In this document: in pieces, positions 28,810-64,000 of the stretch | How positions within the stretch are numbered: the first letter of the stretch is position 1 | Layout of the letters: each line of letters opens with the position of its first letter | NCBI GenBank assembly: GCA_018402445.1 | Contig: JAGYIT010000007.1 | Coordinates: forward strand, 496,001-560,000 | Length of the DNA stretch: 64,000 nucleotides | Reading direction: 5' to 3' | From: Akkermansiaceae bacterium | Lineage (GTDB): Bacteria; Verrucomicrobiota; Verrucomicrobiia; Verrucomicrobiales; Akkermansiaceae | The notes under the pieces: model-generated | Database searches by the model: none | What the model was told of the DNA's origin: nothing | The model's input: only the letters and a program-made list of their open reading frames with translations | Position numbers and translations under genes: made by a program

Positions 28810-29520
28810 AGTTTTTTCACCAAGTGTCGTGAGGTTGTGAGTCAGGCATAAGAACCGGGCTTGCGGGGTTTTGGCGTCCCAATGCTGTCACCTCCCGCAA
28901 AGTGGCTGTGGCGTCCCGCCACAGGCCGTCCCCGGAGCCTCTCGCTCCGAGTCATAAATCCCCCCGTCAGAAATTTTCCCACCCTGATCTTCCCCAAAAC
29001 CGAACCACCTCATCCAATCTTGCCTCGCATAAAATATGTTCATATGAACGTATTTTTTATGCCATCCATCTATCAGTCCCGCCGCCCCCGTGCCTCGCCT
29101 CTTTGGCAGCTTGTCCATCACGGCTGGGGTGCCTTTTCCTCTGATTACGAAAAGAAGCGCCGTTCTACCCTCGGTCCGCTCCATCCGTCTGTCATCGCCA
29201 CCGTAGAATCCTTCCTCCGCTGCGGCGATCTTGCCTCCGGCTTCACTCGCCTCGAATGCACCGATTGCGGCTATGAGCGGCTACTAGCCTTCACCTGCAA
29301 AACCCGCCACTTCTGTCTTGCCCCCGACGGGCGCTTTCACTGCCTGCCGCAGGGAGCCATCGGCTCTATGACCGAATTGTTTCGCCATCGCTTCTCCCTC
29401 CAGAAAATCACTTGGAACGCCAGCACCCAGACCGTCATCTACCGCTCCAAGCGCCATCACAACACCAAGGGTCTCGGCCAAAAATAAACGCGCAATTCAA
29501 CGAGATTGCTGACGAAGTCC

Positions 29521-29671
29521 CTGGACTGCGGCAGCCTGCTGCCGCTTTCCGCCATGCAGCCTGCTGCGAGCGGGGCAAGCGAAGGTTTCATCGGGCTTTT
29601 CCCGTGCCAATGCCGCCGGCCTCGCAGCAGGGCTGCATTGCCCAGAGCTACAGCAGGCTGTAGCAGTCCAG
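29521..29671. repeat. ~151-bp nested palindromic (REP/MITE-like) element inside the IS91-like remnant
   Basis: Ends ctggactgcggcagcctgct / agcaggctgtagcagtccag are inverted repeats (18/20); inner arms atgcagcctgctgcgag / ctcgcagcagggctgcat also pair. Confidence 0.7.
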
Positions 29672-30063
29672 GGCGCTTCGCGCACATGTCGTCGACGAAA
29701 TGAATTTGGCGGAATCCCCAAGCGCAATTTCGAGATTTTCAAAGCTCCCGATTTCATCGCTGCCGCCCTCCTCCATTTGCCGCCCAAGGGACAGCAAACG
29801 GTGCGCTACTATGGCGTTTATTCCAACAAGGTTCGGGGCCGGAATACGGAAAAATCACCATCCTTGATCACCGAGGGAACCGGAAGCTCTGCAATTGCTC
29901 CGGAAAATCCAACATCGGAAATCAGCAACCTGTCCGTCGTAGCCTTCTTGGCCTTCGTAGCTTCAGCGAAGTAGGCGGCGAAGTCGGATCATCAATCGGA
30001 GTTCCTGCTCGTCGAGCCATCAAGGAATGGATTGCCGACGCTCCGCTCTGGCCATGCGAGCTG

Positions 30064-30090
30064 CAAGATCCTCCTCCGGATCTTGTTTTT
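30064..30090 (+). terminator. Possible intrinsic terminator CAAGATCC-tcctcc-GGATCTTG-TTTTT
   Basis: Perfect 8-bp stem, 6-nt loop, 5 T. Confidence 0.4.
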
Positions 30091-30471
30091 CATGATGCGC
30101 CGCCTAGCTGCGGCAGGAGCATTCCGGACGACGAACCCAACCTGAATGGGTTCAATCAGCCGAGGAACGCACGAATCCAATGTCAGGATTTCGATGACAT
30201 CGACCAGAGTCCCACATGGCAGGCACCCGAAATCCTTTTGGACGAAGGTCGAACGCTGGTTCTCGAATACATCTGACCCGCCCGGCGGAAAAAAACAACC
30301 GATGCCAAAAAAAATCTTGGCAAAGCGGCTTGGAGAGCTACGTTAACTGCGAATGAATTTGACCGTCAAAACCAGAAACGGCCATTGCAGTAATCCTGTT
30401 GCGTCGCGTTTTTCTTCACTGATCACTGCTAACTCGGCACTTTTCACTTCTTCCTACCCCCTTTTCCCCCG

Positions 30472-30511
30472 CAACCCCCTTTTCCCCGCCCTCCGGTCTG
30501 GCCACCGGCTC
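30472..30511. repeat. 40-bp direct repeat, copy 1
   Basis: caacccccttttccccgccctccggtctggccaccggctc, identical to 35614-35653. Confidence 0.9.
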
Positions 30512-30527
30512 CTTTTCCTAGCATTAG

Positions 30528-30833
30528 CACGGCATCACCCCGCAATCCGTCATCCGCTCCGTACAGCAGAGCCTGCATTCCTATGAGAAAGGCAAGCAGC
30601 ACGCCGAGAAGCTCAACGCTTCCCTCGTCGCCGAGGGCGAAGGCACCTACGACAAGCTCCGCGTCATCGCCGAGCTGGAGCAGGAAATGCGCGAGGCCTC
30701 ATCGAAGCTCGAATTCGAGCGAGCCGCGCACCTCCGCGACCAGATCGCCACACTGAAAAACGCCACCCCGGTGATGCCGCCGCAGAGAAAGGTGAAGTAT
30801 CCCGGGAAAAAGCAATCGAAAGGCGCCCGGTAG
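30528..30833 (+). pseudogene. Orphan C-terminal fragment of UvrB (UVR motif)
   Basis: HGITPQSVIRSVQQSLHSYEKGKQHAEKL...YDKLRVIAELEQEMREASSKLEFERAAHLRDQIATLKN; no N-terminal portion upstream. Confidence 0.8.
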
Positions 30834-30973
30834 CCCTGGCATGGCAATGGGTCTTTCAACTAGCCACCGACCGGCCACCAGGCCCTTCTACGGCATTCAC
30901 CCGAAAGCAAATTTCGCATCCTCCGAATAAATCCGGAATTTTGACTTGCCATGGCGGGGGGGGGGATTCATTA

Positions 30974-33900
30974 ATGTGTATTTACAAAATGAATTACTCA
31001 CCCGAACCAACGGAGTCAAGATACGTTGCGGGCTTCGCCTTGGTAAGCACGCTGATGCTGATGGTGCTCCTGTCCATATTGGCCATCGGTATGCTGAGCC
31101 TCTCGGCGGTTTCCCTGCGCACCGGTTCGCGGAACGACGCCATGACGGAGGCGCGCGGCAACGCCCGGATCGCCCTGATGATCGCCATCGGCGAACTCCA
31201 GGAGGAAATGGGGCCGGACATGCGGGTCAGCGCCAAGGCCGCCATTTTCGACCGGAATCCCGATACCGAGGAAATCGAAGGCGTGGATCAGCCGCATTGG
31301 CTCGCCGCCTACGATTCCTGGGGAAACTGGCTCAACGCTTCCTACGATCATCCGGAAACCGGCTCGACACTCAACATCCAGGACACCTACACGCCGCGGC
31401 GCGAAAGCATGTTCCGCCGCTGGCTGCTCTCCCTGCCGGAAGGCATGGAGCGTGACGCCGCCGCACCGGTCGATTCCAACGGCTGGGACGATGAAAATTC
31501 GGTGGTTCTCGTAGGCTCGGGCAGCGCCGCCTCCGGGGAAACCCGCGCCTACCTCACCGCCGTCGGCGATACCGGCCGCAGCGCATGGTGGATCGGCCCG
31601 GAGAACCACAAGGCGCGCATCGACAAGGCCAAGTCCCCCCGCAGCCTCAGCGCCGACAAATGGGAAACCGCCCAGGGCGACACCGCCGAGGTCGGCGTGG
31701 GCGCGCTGCCCGGGCTCGGCTCCCTCGATGCCAACGCAAGCCTCAGCGACAGGCTCGTGTCACGCGCCACCCTCGTTCCCGCCGGTGTCGCGGACGCGGC
31801 CGTGAAAAGGCATTTCTTCGACCTCACCGAATCAAGCCGCGGCGTGATCGCCAGTGTCCGCACCGGACACCTGAAAAAGGATCTCAGCCTGCTCTTCGAA
31901 AAACCCAAGGCCGACCTGCCTTCGCCCTACCGCTTTGATCCCGGCGATGTGAAAGAACCCTCGATCCGCCCGATGAGCCCGGAGATCGCGGGCAAGGCCG
32001 TGCTCTACGAGCGGCAGTTCGCACCATGGAACCGCATGCGGCATTTCTACCGCATGTACAGGCAGGACAGCGATGCGGTTGCTGCAGACTGGGCCAACCG
32101 AGGCACCGATGGAACGCCGGGACTCAACTGGACGGGATCCAAACCATGGGCGGATTGCAACATGAGCATGTATTTCTCAGGATGGGAAGGGAACGACAGC
32201 TACCACCGCTTCCCGGTGCTTGCGAACCTAACCTACATCCTCAGTCTCAAGACCGAATACTTGGCCAGCGGCAGGAATGCGGGGAAATATGATGTCCGTT
32301 ATGTCGCCTCGCCCGTCTGTGTGTATTGGAACCCCTACAATGTGGAGTTGCGTGTGCCGGACAGCAAATTTGCGATGAGATCCTACCTTGCGCAGGTCCA
32401 CACCATGGATGGACAGGTTTATCTGGGCAGTTCCTGGAACAAGGAGGTCGCTCTGCGTTTCGATGACGATTACGCGAGGATGATGTCCGGCAGCGGGCAG
32501 GATGTGGTTTTCAAACCCGGGCAGTTCCGGATCTTCTCCCCTGAGGGGTCAAGTCTCATCAAAGGCAATCATCTGGACATGAAGCCCGGCTTCGACCCCC
32601 AATCTTTCGGGGGCTTATATGACCAAATCGGAGCTTACACCCCGGCTCAGGCACCGAAGTTCCAGATGCGCTTCAGCAACAAGATCAATAGATGGAAGTT
32701 CAACTTCCGCTACGGCAACACCCCTGGCTCCTTGAACTTTTTGGAATACTGGTCTCCTATCGGCACCAACAACGGCGGAAACTATAGCAACCCGTCTTAC
32801 AATCATCACGTCGATTGGTTCAACACCGCCCAGCTTTACACCTCGATCAGTGATCCCAACACCCCGGATCCGTGGGTTTTCGATGGCGACCTCCTGCCTG
32901 TCGGCTACTTCCAACTGGCGCTCAAAGGAATCCATGATTATGACTACCCGTCGATCGCTTGGGAGAAGGATTGGCGCTGCCGGAACTGGATTCAGGCGCC
33001 CCCGTTCTATCTCGGCAAAGGCCTGTATATGTCCGACGACGTGGTGATCGGTGACACGCAGAGAATCGATTCCCCCTACGAGCTTCGCTTCGGCCCCCTT
33101 CTCGGTGCCGGTAAAGATGTGGACGACATCATCCAGCACGTGGGGGAAAGCGCGCTCATGGGATTGGGCGAACGCGTAACCGCCGTCCCTAGCCTCGAGC
33201 TTCCCTCCGCTCCCATCGGCAGTCTCGGTGGGTTCGGCACGATGAGAATCGATCCCGGCTGGGTGGACATCGCGACGCTGAATCCCGAATGGAAAAAGGG
33301 AACCGCCCCGGCACCCAACAACAATAGCACGGGAAACTCGCTGTATCGTGGCGAAGCCAAAGCGTGGGCTTACCAAAGCGGCGTCACCGGCCCCGGGATC
33401 GGCAATTCCTTCCTCCATCCGATGATCCCTCGCACCCAGGTATACAAGTATTTCAATAATTCGGTCAGCATGGACATGCTTAATATCCTGGATCCCAACG
33501 CCGGCTACTCGCCAGTGGACACCAAGGCATACTGCGACTACTGGGATCACGTCCTGTTGCTCAACGACGCGCTATGGGACGACTATTTCGTCTCGTCGCT
33601 CGCGGACCAGACGAGGCCTGGTGCGACTGCGGGTGTAAGCCTTCAGGACAACCTCGATCGTCTCGTTTCCGAGGAGGAACTGTCCAACAGCCGATACGTG
33701 TTTCACGACGGTGGCAAGACGGCGACCGAGGTGAAGGCGGAGCTTGCGGCGGAGGATGGCTACCTGAAGGCCGCCGCACATCTTGTGGTGGAGGGGATGT
33801 TCAACGTCAACAGCACCTCGGTGGCCGCGTGGCACGCACTCTTTGCGGGGATACGGGGGCGGGAAGTGGTGTATCGCGATGCGAACGGCAACCTGCGCCC

Positions 33901-34666
33901 GGTTAAAGTGCCTTCGGACAAGCGGATCGCTCTTTCGCGATTCGGCGTGGCGACAACGGATCAGGAGTGCGCGGATCCCGAGTTCGGCATCACACGGGAC
34001 GACGGCATGCAGGCATGGTCCGGCGTGCGTTTTCTGGATGACGCGCAACTGCGCAAGCTCGCCGAGAAATGCGTGGTGCAGGTGAAGCGGCGCGGACCTT
34101 TCCTTAATTTCTCCGAGTTCATCAACCGCCGCCTCTCCGAAGACGATCTCGGCACGAGAGGAGCCCTGCAGGCGGCGATCGATTACGACGACGCAAACCC
34201 CGAACCTGGTTCCATCAACTACCAGTTCAAGAGCAACAGCGACTACCTGCTTAAGGAAAATGATCTCGGTAACCATGCGTTCGAGACGCCCGAGGCAGCG
34301 GTAGGCTCGCGCTTTGCGGGGATCCCGGGATACGTGATCCAGTCCGATGTGCTCCGCCCCATCGCGAACACGCTTTCGGTGCGTGACGACACATTCCGTA
34401 TCCGCGCCTACGGTGATTCGCTCGACGGGGACGGAAACATCCTTGCGCAGGCATGGTGCGAGGCGATCGTCCACCGGGTGCCGGAATACTGCGACGAAAC
34501 GGACGCGGCGGATGTGCCCGTGCGCGGGATGGAGATTGGCTCCGACGGCAAGTTCACCGGCAAATTCACGGACATTGGCGACAGCGCCCTCACGCCGACC
34601 AATCTTCGTTTCGGGCGGAAGTTCGTGATCGAGAGCTTCCGCTGGCTGAGCGGTTCCGAGATCTGA
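30974..34666 (+). CDS. Verru_Chthon cassette protein A-like, prepilin-like N-terminus
   Basis: GFALVSTLMLMVLLSILAIGMLSLSAVSLRTGSRNDAMTEARGNARIALMIAIGELQEEMGPD prepilin-type segment followed by ~1150 aa. Confidence 0.75.
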   Translation: MCIYKMNYSPEPTESRYVAGFALVSTLMLMVLLSILAIGMLSLSAVSLRTGSRNDAMTEARGNARIALMIAIGELQEEMGPDMRVSAKAAIFDRNPDTEEIEGVDQPHWLAAYDSWGNWLNASYDHPETGSTLNIQDTYTPRRESMFRRWLLSLPEGMERDAAAPVDSNGWDDENSVVLVGSGSAASGETRAYLTAVGDTGRSAWWIGPENHKARIDKAKSPRSLSADKWETAQGDTAEVGVGALPGLGSLDANASLSDRLVSRATLVPAGVADAAVKRHFFDLTESSRGVIASVRTGHLKKDLSLLFEKPKADLPSPYRFDPGDVKEPSIRPMSPEIAGKAVLYERQFAPWNRMRHFYRMYRQDSDAVAADWANRGTDGTPGLNWTGSKPWADCNMSMYFSGWEGNDSYHRFPVLANLTYILSLKTEYLASGRNAGKYDVRYVASPVCVYWNPYNVELRVPDSKFAMRSYLAQVHTMDGQVYLGSSWNKEVALRFDDDYARMMSGSGQDVVFKPGQFRIFSPEGSSLIKGNHLDMKPGFDPQSFGGLYDQIGAYTPAQAPKFQMRFSNKINRWKFNFRYGNTPGSLNFLEYWSPIGTNNGGNYSNPSYNHHVDWFNTAQLYTSISDPNTPDPWVFDGDLLPVGYFQLALKGIHDYDYPSIAWEKDWRCRNWIQAPPFYLGKGLYMSDDVVIGDTQRIDSPYELRFGPLLGAGKDVDDIIQHVGESALMGLGERVTAVPSLELPSAPIGSLGGFGTMRIDPGWVDIATLNPEWKKGTAPAPNNNSTGNSLYRGEAKAWAYQSGVTGPGIGNSFLHPMIPRTQVYKYFNNSVSMDMLNILDPNAGYSPVDTKAYCDYWDHVLLLNDALWDDYFVSSLADQTRPGATAGVSLQDNLDRLVSEEELSNSRYVFHDGGKTATEVKAELAAEDGYLKAAAHLVVEGMFNVNSTSVAAWHALFAGIRGREVVYRDANGNLRPVKVPSDKRIALSRFGVATTDQECADPEFGITRDDGMQAWSGVRFLDDAQLRKLAEKCVVQVKRRGPFLNFSEFINRRLSEDDLGTRGALQAAIDYDDANPEPGSINYQFKSNSDYLLKENDLGNHAFETPEAAVGSRFAGIPGYVIQSDVLRPIANTLSVRDDTFRIRAYGDSLDGDGNILAQAWCEAIVHRVPEYCDETDAADVPVRGMEIGSDGKFTGKFTDIGDSALTPTNLRFGRKFVIESFRWLSGSEI

Positions 34667-34682
34667 ACGCCTCCTTTCCGCC

Positions 34683-35423
34683 ATGCCCTCATCGCTGCGT
34701 AAATTGCTCCTGTACCTGTGCTTCCTGCCCGTGGGAATGCTGCCTGTCGCGGCGCAATCCGGGCCCGATGCGGAAAAACGCGAACCCGCCGGGCGTTCCG
34801 CGTGGTTCGCCTGTCTCGCCAAGCCGGAAGGGCTTGAGGATCCCGTCAAGATCCTGGCGGGCGAAAAAATCACCGAGCTTGAACTGCCCGAATTCATGGC
34901 GAGCGAGGCGGTGAAGATCCCCGCCGACGGCATCCTCCGCATCGTCAGACCCATCCCCGATCCGGAAGATCCCGCGAAGACGAAATACCTCATCCTCGCC
35001 GAGGTGAAAATTCCCGAAAGCGTCCGCGAGGCGCTGATCCTGCTCGATCCCTTGACCGAACCCGAAGGCGATCTTCTTTTCCGCGCCAAGGTGCAGGATC
35101 TCGCCAAATTCAAGGGAGGCGACCGGCTTTACATCAACCTCAGCAATACGAACATCCGCGTCCGGCTGGGCAAGACGACCGTGCCCGTCGCGCCGGGGCA
35201 GGCGAACATCTACGAGTGCCCGAAGCTCGCCGATCCGCGGAACATGCCGATCATGTATGAGTTCTACCACCCCGTGCGCAAGGAATGGAAAATCCTGACC
35301 GCCTCCACCATCGTGCTGCGCCCCACGCGCCGGCAGATCTACGTGTTCAACAACGGCAGCCGGATCGGCAACATCAGGAAACACGGGATCATCTTCCCCC
35401 TGCCGGTAGCCGATCCGCCATGA
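34683..35423 (+). CDS. Hypothetical secreted protein downstream of the cassette A-like gene
   Basis: Signal peptide MPSSLRKLLLYLCFLPVGMLPVAAQS; short spacing from the upstream gene. Confidence 0.65.
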   Translation: MPSSLRKLLLYLCFLPVGMLPVAAQSGPDAEKREPAGRSAWFACLAKPEGLEDPVKILAGEKITELELPEFMASEAVKIPADGILRIVRPIPDPEDPAKTKYLILAEVKIPESVREALILLDPLTEPEGDLLFRAKVQDLAKFKGGDRLYINLSNTNIRVRLGKTTVPVAPGQANIYECPKLADPRNMPIMYEFYHPVRKEWKILTASTIVLRPTRRQIYVFNNGSRIGNIRKHGIIFPLPVADPP

Positions 35424-35613: not shown

Positions 35614-35653
35614 CAACCCCCTTTTCCCCGCCCTCCGGTCTGGCCACCGGCTC
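35614..35653. repeat. 40-bp direct repeat, copy 2
   Basis: Identical to 30472-30511. Confidence 0.9.
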
Positions 35654-35693
35654 TTTCAACGGCCTTCACCCAAAAAGCAAATTCCTGCATTTC

Positions 35694-40862: not shown

Positions 40863-41939
40863 GTGAGCAAGAGATTTTTATGTGCTTGGGCGGGTTCCGG
40901 ATCGAAACCGGCGGTGTATCACTGCGTGACGCGTTGCGTCGGGCGTTCCTATTTGTTGGGGGATGAAGAGAAGGAGAAATTCCGGGTTTTCATGCGCATG
41001 CAGGAGAATTTCAGCGGCTGCCGGGTGCTTTCCTACTGCGTGATGTCCAATCACATCCACATTTTGCTGGAGGTTCCACCCATGCCGGAGGGCGGGATTT
41101 CGGACGCGGAGCTGCTCAAGAGGCTTTCCGCCGTCTGGTCGGAGGGGGCGGTGGAGCAGGTGGCGCGGGAGCTTGCGGGTGCGAGGGAGGAGGGGGATGC
41201 GGAGCTGGCGGCGGTGATCCACGCCCGTTTCACCTACCGGATGCACAACCTCAGCGAGTATATGAAGACGGTTTTGCACCGTTTCAGTTGCTGGTTCAAC
41301 CGCACGCACAGCCGCACCGGCACCTTGTGGGAGGAGCGGTTCAAGAGCGTGATCGTGGAGAGCGGCGTGGCCGCGCGGACGATGGCGGCTTACATTGACT
41401 TGAATCCGGTACGGGCGGGAATGGTGGAAGATCCGGCGGAGTATCGCTGGAGCAGCTACGGCGAGGCGGTGGGTGGCGGGGGCAAGGGGAATGGCAAGAA
41501 GGCGCGTGAGGGCTTGGTGCGGGCGTGCATGGGTCACGAGGGCGCGGGCTTTGATGCGGCGCGGTGGAAGGAGGACTCACGGATTTACCGGCGGGCGCTG
41601 GGGCTGGCGCTGGGGCGGAAAACTTCAAATTTCAAATTTCAAACTTCAAGCAAGAGGAAGACTTCGGTGACGAAGAACGAGGCGGAGATGCTGGCCTCGG
41701 AGGATAACGAGACAGTGCTTCCGGATCTGGGAATGGCGAAGATGTTAAGGATGCGCGTGAGGTATTTCACGGACGGGGCGGTGATCGGGAGCAAGGAGTT
41801 TGTGAACGAGGCGTTCGCGGGGGCGCGGGAGAGGTTTACGGAAAGGAGGAAGGATGGCGCGCGGCGGATGCGGGGGAGCGGCGCGGCGGCGAAGGGGACG
41901 CTTTGGAGTATTCGGGATCTGCGGGTGGGTGTGGGGTAG
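40863..41939 (+). CDS. REP-associated-type Y1 (HUH) tyrosine transposase
   Basis: GTG start; CVMSNHIHILLEVP HUH motif, GTLWEERFKSVIVE, YIDLNPVRAGMVEDPAEYRWSSY. Confidence 0.88.
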   Translation: MSKRFLCAWAGSGSKPAVYHCVTRCVGRSYLLGDEEKEKFRVFMRMQENFSGCRVLSYCVMSNHIHILLEVPPMPEGGISDAELLKRLSAVWSEGAVEQVARELAGAREEGDAELAAVIHARFTYRMHNLSEYMKTVLHRFSCWFNRTHSRTGTLWEERFKSVIVESGVAARTMAAYIDLNPVRAGMVEDPAEYRWSSYGEAVGGGGKGNGKKAREGLVRACMGHEGAGFDAARWKEDSRIYRRALGLALGRKTSNFKFQTSSKRKTSVTKNEAEMLASEDNETVLPDLGMAKMLRMRVRYFTDGAVIGSKEFVNEAFAGARERFTERRKDGARRMRGSGAAAKGTLWSIRDLRVGVG

Positions 41940-56485: not shown

Positions 56486-57652
56486 ATGATTCATCGGCGT
56501 ATTCAACAGGAACTTGATCTGGCCTTGTCGCGGCAGGCTTCGGTCGCGTTGTTGGGGCCGCGGCAGGTGGGAAAAACGACGCTGGCGCTGGAGGTCGCGG
56601 CTTCGCGTCCGAACGTTTATCTGGATCTGGAAAACCCGATGGATCGCACGAAGCTCGCGGAGCCGGAATTGTTTTTTGCGCGGCATCAGGACGAGTTGGT
56701 GATTTTGGATGAGATCCACCGCGCGCCGGATCTGTTCATGGTGTTGCGCGGGGTGATCGACAAGGGTCGCAGGGCCGGTCGGCGCACCGGCCGGTTTCTC
56801 ATGCTGGGTTCGGCGGCCATCGAGCTGATGCGCCAGAGCGAGACCCTCGCGGGCAGGATCGCATTTGTGGACATGGGGCCGCTGGATGTCCTGGAGGCCG
56901 GGAATCAATCCACCGAAACCCTCTGGCTGCGCGGCGGTTTCCCCGACAGTTTTCTCGCGGACGATGATTCGCTGAGCATGGCGTTGCGGCGGGATTTCAT
57001 CCGCACGTATCTGGAGCGGGATGTGCCGATGTTTGGGCCGCGCATTCCGGCGGAGACGCTGGGGAGGTTCTGGACGATGCTCGCCCACTCCCAGGGCTGC
57101 TTGCTCAACGCCTCGAAGTTCGCCGCCAACCTCGGTGTAAGCGCCCCGACGGTGACAAGCTACCTGGGGCTGCTCTCGGATCTGCTGCTGGTGCGTCGGC
57201 TGCCGCCTTACCACCGCAACGTGGGCAAGCGCCTCGTGAAATCGCCCAAAACGTATGTGCGCGACAGCGGGCTGCTGCACGCCCTGCTCGGCATCGCGGA
57301 TGTGGATACGCTGCTCGGCCATCCGGTGGTCGGCGCAAGCTGGGAGGGCATGGTCATCGAGAACCTCATCGCCGCCGCCCCGGCCGGCGCACAGGCTTAT
57401 TTTTACCGGACAGCCGCGGGCGCGGAAATCGACCTGGTGCTGGATCTTGGCGGCAGGCACGGAGTCTGGGCATTTGAAATCAGGCGCAACCCGGCGCAGG
57501 GTCTTCGGAAGGGAAACCACCACGCCCTGGCTGACATCGCCCCGAAGCGCTCGTTTCTCATTCACGGAGGCAGCGACCGTTTCCCGCTCACACGCGACAC
57601 CGAGGCCATCGGCCTGCTAGAACTTGCCAGGGAACTCGCCGCGCTCGATTGA
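56486..57652 (+). CDS. AAA (AAA_14)/DUF4143 ATPase
   Basis: LLGPRQVGKTTLALEVA Walker A, VILDEIHRAPDLF Walker B, ETLWLRGGFPDSFL. Confidence 0.9.
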   Translation: MIHRRIQQELDLALSRQASVALLGPRQVGKTTLALEVAASRPNVYLDLENPMDRTKLAEPELFFARHQDELVILDEIHRAPDLFMVLRGVIDKGRRAGRRTGRFLMLGSAAIELMRQSETLAGRIAFVDMGPLDVLEAGNQSTETLWLRGGFPDSFLADDDSLSMALRRDFIRTYLERDVPMFGPRIPAETLGRFWTMLAHSQGCLLNASKFAANLGVSAPTVTSYLGLLSDLLLVRRLPPYHRNVGKRLVKSPKTYVRDSGLLHALLGIADVDTLLGHPVVGASWEGMVIENLIAAAPAGAQAYFYRTAAGAEIDLVLDLGGRHGVWAFEIRRNPAQGLRKGNHHALADIAPKRSFLIHGGSDRFPLTRDTEAIGLLELARELAALD

Positions 57653-57653
57653 A

Positions 57654-57762
57654 GGGTTTTCCGAAAATTTCACCGCTGGAAAAATCCCGGCGCAGCCTCA
57701 TCTTCCCGCCCACATGCCGTTCCGTCTTTCCAGCGAATACAATCCCCAGGGCGACCCGCATC
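57654..57762 (+). pseudogene. Degenerate copy of uvrB leader and first codons
   Basis: Near-parallel to 62970-63079: gggttttcc...accgctggaaa...atgccgttccgtctttccagcgaatac ([16 protein letters not shown]). Confidence 0.75.
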
Positions 57763-63030: not shown

Positions 63031-64000
63031 ATGCCCTTCCGTCTCTCCAGCGAATACAGTCCCCAGGGCGACCAGCATCAGGCCATCGAGAAACTGGTGA
63101 AATCGCTCAGGGCGGGAAACAAGCACCAGACGCTGCTCGGTGTGACCGGTTCCGGGAAAACCTTCACCATGGCGAACCTGATCGCGCGCCACGGCAAGCC
63201 CGCTCTGGTGATGAGCCACAACAAGACCCTCGCCGCGCAGCTTTACTCCGAGTTCAAAAACTTTTTCCCGCACAACGCGGTCGAGTATTTCGTCTCCTAC
63301 TTCGATTACTACCAGCCCGAGGCCTACATCCCGCGCTCCGACACCTACATTGAGAAGGACTCGTCGATCAACGAGGAGATCGAGCGGCTGCGGCTTTCCA
63401 CCATGGGCTCGCTGCTCACCCGCGAGGACACGATTGTCATCGCCTCCGTTTCCTGCATCTACGGCTTGGGTTCGCCCGAGGATTACAAGGACATGATGTT
63501 CCCGGTGTGGGTCGGCCAGCAAATCACCCGCGAGGAGCTTCTAACAGCTTTGGTGGGCCTGCTTTTCGAAAGGAACGACATCGCCTTCGGTCGCGGGAAA
63601 TACCGGGTGCGCGGCGATGTGGTCGAGGTGCATCCCGCTTATCTCGACGAGACGGCGATCCGCATCGAGTTCTTCGGCGACGAGGTGGAGCGCATTTCTT
63701 CCATCCATACGGTCAGTGGGAAAGTGATCGAAGTGTTGGAAAATCACACGCTTTACCCCGCCAAGCAGTTCGTCACCGCAGGCGACAAGATGAAGACCGC
63801 GATCACCAAGATCCGCGAGGAGCTCGACCAGCGCATCCCGGAACTGGAAAAGGGCGGCAAGCTCATCGAGGCGCAGCGCCTGCGGATGCGGACAGAGTAT
63901 GACTTGGAGATGATGTCGGAAATGGGTTTTTGCCAGGGCATCGAGAACTACTCACGCCATCTAACAGCCCGCCCGCCCGGCTCGCGTCCCCACACCCTGC
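63031..64000 (+). CDS. uvrB: Excinuclease ABC subunit B, 5' part (runs off the window)
   Basis: [63 protein letters not shown]. Confidence 0.95.

Follow-up and report, generated by a model that had tools for sequence, protein, structure and literature searches.

The 3' end of a uvrB gene, 308 bp at 30526-30833 on the forward strand, is joined directly to the right tip of a decayed IS91-family element and differs from the complete uvrB of the same genome almost only at synonymous sites. With slightly better than even confidence, we consider this fragment to be the 3' end of a uvrB of a different lineage, recently joined to the element either by IS91-family one-ended transposition or by recombination between right-end repeats. 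The window is the whole 64,000-nucleotide stretch that was analysed (C5:496001-560000), which belongs to a genome of 3.53 Mb in 17 contigs, estimated to be 88% complete. Records of relatives in this clade carry the labels Akkermansiaceae, Verrucomicrobiaceae or Prosthecobacter.

Identity and coding state of the uvrB tail

The fragment comprises the last ~101 codons of uvrB together with the TAG stop at 30831, and its translation reads GITPQSVIRS...KYPGKKQSKGAR before the stop. A DNA search matched it to the resident uvrB with an E value of 3.9e-97, and a profile search matched it to the C-terminal end of the UvrB models PRK05298 and TIGR00631. The earlier note had read 30528-30833 as a UvrB C-terminus with UVR motif and stop codon, and both features are present; we place the left limit at 30526, where the two bases AG (30526-30527) are common to both sides of the junction, the tip of the repeat R1 and uvrB. 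An in-frame TAG lies at 30525, directly upstream of the fragment, and its earliest in-frame ATG, at 30687, falls within the UVR region, so that the usable start upstream of the conserved part expected of a functional short uvrB-derived gene is absent. Because of this stop and the lack of a start before 30687, the fragment is most likely an unexpressed pseudogene piece that gives no product. No match to the fragment was found in the viral contigs searched, nor to the junction region in the plasmids searched.

Substitution pattern and lineage

Over the 84 codons that could be compared with the resident uvrB, 27 differ, 24 of them synonymously and three non-synonymously, and the differences at codon positions 1, 2 and 3 number 2, 2 and 24 (dN 0.021, dS 0.57, dN/dS about 0.04). 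Under neutrality, 71-76% of changes in the fragment, whose frame is intact, are expected to alter the protein, and the probability of three or fewer non-synonymous codons among 27 is 1e-10 to 1e-12. The same synonymous-biased pattern is seen between functional uvrB orthologues of different species. The fragment shares 87-89% DNA identity with the uvrB of several close relatives, which is similar to its distance from the resident gene, and its C-terminal tail SKGAR is that of locus L062, the resident uvrB ending in VRSLE. In a tree built from 252 bp the placement of the fragment was unresolved, with support mostly below 60. Because the 12% divergence is almost purely synonymous, we conclude from the substitutions that the fragment derives from another, recently functional uvrB lineage, and they indicate that until recently it was part of a working gene distinct from the resident one. 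It would either have been acquired horizontally or be the relic of a uvrB since replaced, in which case the resident gene is the newcomer. Sliding identity had also suggested a recombination breakpoint in the 3' part of uvrB, but this was dismissed, since the rise near codon 650 occurs in all pairs; the rise may reflect relaxed codon constraint.

The origin proposed in the earlier note, duplication of the resident uvrB within the genome and decay of the copy, accords with the location of the fragment on the same contig and strand, 32-35 kb from the complete gene, and with 88% DNA identity between the two. A dead copy, however, should show non-synonymous changes in roughly the neutral proportion, and the fragment is no closer to the resident uvrB than to that of several other species; we regard this origin as very unlikely and set it aside on the substitution pattern. 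Even less probable is a functional small UVR-domain protein under selection, to which the frame open to its natural stop and the very low dN would be suited. The in-frame TAG and the position of the first ATG argue against such a gene, as do the matches in other members of the genus, which sit in long uvrB frames and not in stand-alone short genes; the low dN is taken as inherited from the donor gene. We give equally little credence to an assembly chimera of two species. The assembly is of metagenome type and the fragment resembles the uvrB of other species, but it lies inside a 1.1-Mb contig between repeats that are present elsewhere in the same genome, for which contamination is estimated at 0.55%.

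The resident uvrB and other uvrB pieces

The uvrB start that the earlier note had located at 63031 belongs to a complete gene, which occupies 63031-64000 (+) in the window and continues to C5:561211 (C5:559031-561211, a 726-aa ORF at L027:7031-9211). This gene keeps its own C-terminus with the UVR end. The case that the note had named as refuting its reading, a complete uvrB without a C-terminus, was thereby checked and is not what is found, and the fragment as a rearranged half of the resident gene is ruled out. The leader remnant recognized at 57654 likewise proved to be a 5' remnant of uvrB, with the leader and the first ~16 codons at 57654-57762 (+) and 87% identity to C5:558969-559079. 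A further orphan 3' piece lies outside the window at C5:564718-564940 (L027:12718-12942), 3.5 kb downstream of uvrB, and has also diverged mainly at third codon positions, where changes are in excess. The uvrB set of this genome is one complete gene, the 5' remnant, the fragment at 30526-30833 and this 3' piece, whereas a search of 58 related genomes returned at most one uvrB match in each except G037, which has a distant second match. Around the 5' remnant and the piece at C5:564718-564940, neither a copy of the right-end repeat nor repeated flanks were found.

There are also signs of rearrangement around the uvrB of relatives. At L060:5240-5480, the complete uvrB is succeeded by a palindromic insert of ~100 bp and then by another uvrB tail, ~22 codons long, that differs from the first. 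The end of an ORF at 57398-57671, just before the 5' remnant, is 86% identical to L060:2-275, which is DNA ~3 kb upstream of the L060 uvrB. Judging from these alignments, the region upstream of uvrB appears to be rearranged among relatives.

The IS91-family element and its right end

The decayed element upstream of the fragment consists of a left end, set by alignment of six copies, and transposase remains at 28978-30276 (+; Zn_Tnp_IS91, E 4.8e-10). The transposase gene has an internal deletion and a broken frame, and of the protein just the zinc domain and parts of the C-terminus remain encoded. In pieces, this part is 78-99% identical in DNA to copies on contigs C10 and C16. Including R1, the element spans 28978-30527, and its last ~400 bp are 98.7% identical to the C10 copy. 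An intact homologue on C16 encodes a transposase of 517 aa (Y2_Tnp 2.1e-23, Zn_Tnp_IS91 2e-18), which combines the zinc-binding and Y2/HUH domains characteristic of the IS91 family. Between the transposase gene and the right end lies a conserved block at 30287-30344 (+), for which this genome gave 11 matches (E <= 1); in four cases a right-end repeat follows ~180 bp further on. The succession of transposase, conserved block and repeat recurs in L172, L173, L177, L182 and L193 as well as in the window, as expected of the constant right end of an IS91-family element. Since the repeat follows the transposase gene and the conserved block, and the transposase is of IS91 type, this context identifies the dispersed repeat as the right end of an IS91-family element.

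The repeat has the consensus AACCCCCTTTTCCCCGCCCTCCGGTCCGGCCAnCGGCTCTTTCAACGGCCnTCACGCnAAAAGCAAATTCCTAGCA of ~75 bp, and at least 24 matches were found in this genome and some in 30 of the 39 genomes searched. Solo copies begin at a sharp left limit between C and AACCCCC (the C in 27 of 31) and are best described as right-end fragments. Behind the right end, AGCA follows in many copies and GC in others, where element and target are inseparable without empty sites, and the target tetranucleotides at the copies are not clean. Equally oriented, identical copies at kilobase spacing had suggested integron attC arrays. This candidate was rejected because the repeat lacks the strong conserved single-strand hairpin and the paired ends of attC: DNA folds of both strands were no better than those of shuffled sequences, and no complementarity was found between the ends.

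Three members of this family lie in this part of the window. R1 (30472-30527, +; L182 alignment, profile E 7e-9) still ends in the right tip TTCCTAGCATTAG (30515-30527) but lacks ~24 bp of the interior that the copy at L182:7168 has; uvrB homology begins directly after the tip. R2 (30848-30922, +) is a degenerate second copy starting ~15 bp past the uvrB stop, in which profile positions 24-70 were matched at 30869-30914 (E 6e-6) and which has weak matches in four other members of the genus. R3 (35614-35688, +; E 6e-22) is complete. It had been claimed that the fragment splits a single repeat that is contiguous at 35614-35690. As R1 keeps its right tip, the fragment lies outside it, and the split was therefore not confirmed; the flanks are the separate copies R1 and R2, and the copy at 35614 is a third member. 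The interval between repeat copies at 30941-35423 holds a gene pair, the first of which is weakly similar to Verru_Chthon cassette protein A. In genome G004 this pair is found at a different locus (C1:779-784 kb), apart from its PQQ-dehydrogenase-like neighbour.

Origin of the junction

From the position of the fragment against the element tip, we infer that IS91-family activity made the join, for which two routes are conceivable. In one-ended transposition, rolling-circle transfer would start from a right-end repeat located shortly past the donor uvrB, run back into the gene and end inside it; R2 would be the candidate origin by its place after the stop, although it is degenerate and this role is a guess. 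The other route would be recombination between dispersed right-end repeats. A direct join to the R1 tip with R2 behind the stop seems to fit both equally. The junction at L182:7170, where a captured 3' piece stands to the right of the repeat, fits recombination better than one-ended transposition because no repeat was detected behind the piece. In a precedent for the first route, IS801 yields right-end fragments of 229-679 nt whose left bound is a target-like tetranucleotide, and its one-ended transposition carries adjacent gene pieces (PMC3189936). The search for an empty site that the earlier note had advised was run with L180 against five relatives, in which no match extended unbroken over the repeats; no donor of the fragment was found among the genomes searched. 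As for the note's broader inference that uvrB-linked DNA has been repeatedly copied and transposed, the link to a mobile element stands for the fragment at 30526-30833, but copying from the resident uvrB does not, and the other uvrB pieces are without repeat or repeated flanks.

Alternatively, the ends of uvrB could be an integration hotspot, in which incoming islands, or imported DNA through homologous recombination, took the place of the gene's ends and old or new ends stayed behind as orphans, the IS91 end adjoining the fragment by chance or later. The second diverged orphan tail downstream of the resident gene would be explained in this way, as would the additional tail behind the palindromic insert in L060 and the differing DNA upstream of uvrB among relatives. 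On the other hand, the three orphan tails begin at different codons, so there is no common attachment site, no integrase was recognized among the ORFs listed there, and the fragment is 32 kb away from uvrB and abuts the IS91 tip. Because the tail starts differ and no integrase was recognized, we rank these models second and consider them unlikely for the fragment, while they may explain the other orphan uvrB pieces, which are without the IS91 repeat.

The repeat at other junctions

Joining through IS91-family right ends, the explanation that we favour for the fragment, can be set beside other junctions at the repeat. A MoxR ATPase gene is cut at the repeat in L173 (profile position 77/131), an aminotransferase gene in L194 (35/223), and in L182 a Y1_Tnp-family gene is cut and fused with another 3' piece. 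Such chimeras suggest that the repeat is a general marker of rearrangement points. A more far-reaching proposal is that the 75-bp right end has turned into a miniature mobile element throughout the genus and systematically links truncated pieces of unrelated genes, as a bacterial counterpart to the shuffling of gene fragments by Helitrons, the uvrB tail being one such piece that also crossed species; we put this forward only tentatively and think it improbable as it stands.

Several observations were made around the repeat copies. Identical, equally oriented copies 0.3-6 kb apart within one genome occur at L172:574-9512, L173:1744-14390 and L174:1478-8511, where truncated genes run into the copies, and these arrays look like repeated local spread or shuffling of gene pieces. 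At L193, L194 and L195 (G000 C16:264 kb, C16:359 kb and C10:65 kb), an IS110-family element (376 aa, ~1.8 kb, 99.4% identical) has inserted into three different repeat copies, each time at the right tip TTCCT, and from this shared position it apparently targets the repeat site-specifically. A stretch of 1855 bp common to the right of three copies had pointed to rightward capture from the repeat; this was discarded, as the stretch is the IS110 element in three different repeats. Genes similar to REP-associated tyrosine transposases recur in the window (40866-41930), at L182:6211-7170 and in L185, L187 and L196. In four loci such a gene is at the right-end repeat or less than ~0.5 kb from it, a count biased by the fetching of loci around the repeat.

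Comparison with known systems

The uvrB tail provides a concrete case of a gene fragment whose substitution pattern shows an origin other than decay of the resident gene, and whose flank identifies the mobile element that it adjoins. The part worth following is the genus-wide miniature IS91-family right end; if confirmed, it would open bacterial rolling-circle gene-fragment shuffling to study with natural copies in a verrucomicrobial genus. The closest known system is IS801 of the IS91 family in Pseudomonas syringae (PMC3189936), which likewise has a transposase of IS91 type, leaves short right-end fragments that are sharply bounded on the left, and carries or joins pieces of neighbouring genes. 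In contrast with IS801, the right-end fragment here is only about 75 bp long and is dispersed across numerous genomes within a verrucomicrobial genus, and one-ended transposition would be a candidate route, with capture of DNA conceivable on either side of the end. Gene-fragment capture by eukaryotic Helitrons (PMC4778049) is comparable in that a rolling-circle family has been linked to the fusion of gene fragments with its ends, whereas Helitrons are eukaryotic and have a helicase, a 3' hairpin and a CTRR end, and the repeat described here is without a special fold. The IS110-family element at the same point of three repeat copies resembles the insertion of IS110-family elements into REP sequences (PMC1525189), except that in the present case an IS91-family terminus, and not a demonstrated REP, is targeted. 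Taken together, the case of the uvrB tail is broadly an ordinary example of the known shuffling of gene fragments in association with mobile elements.
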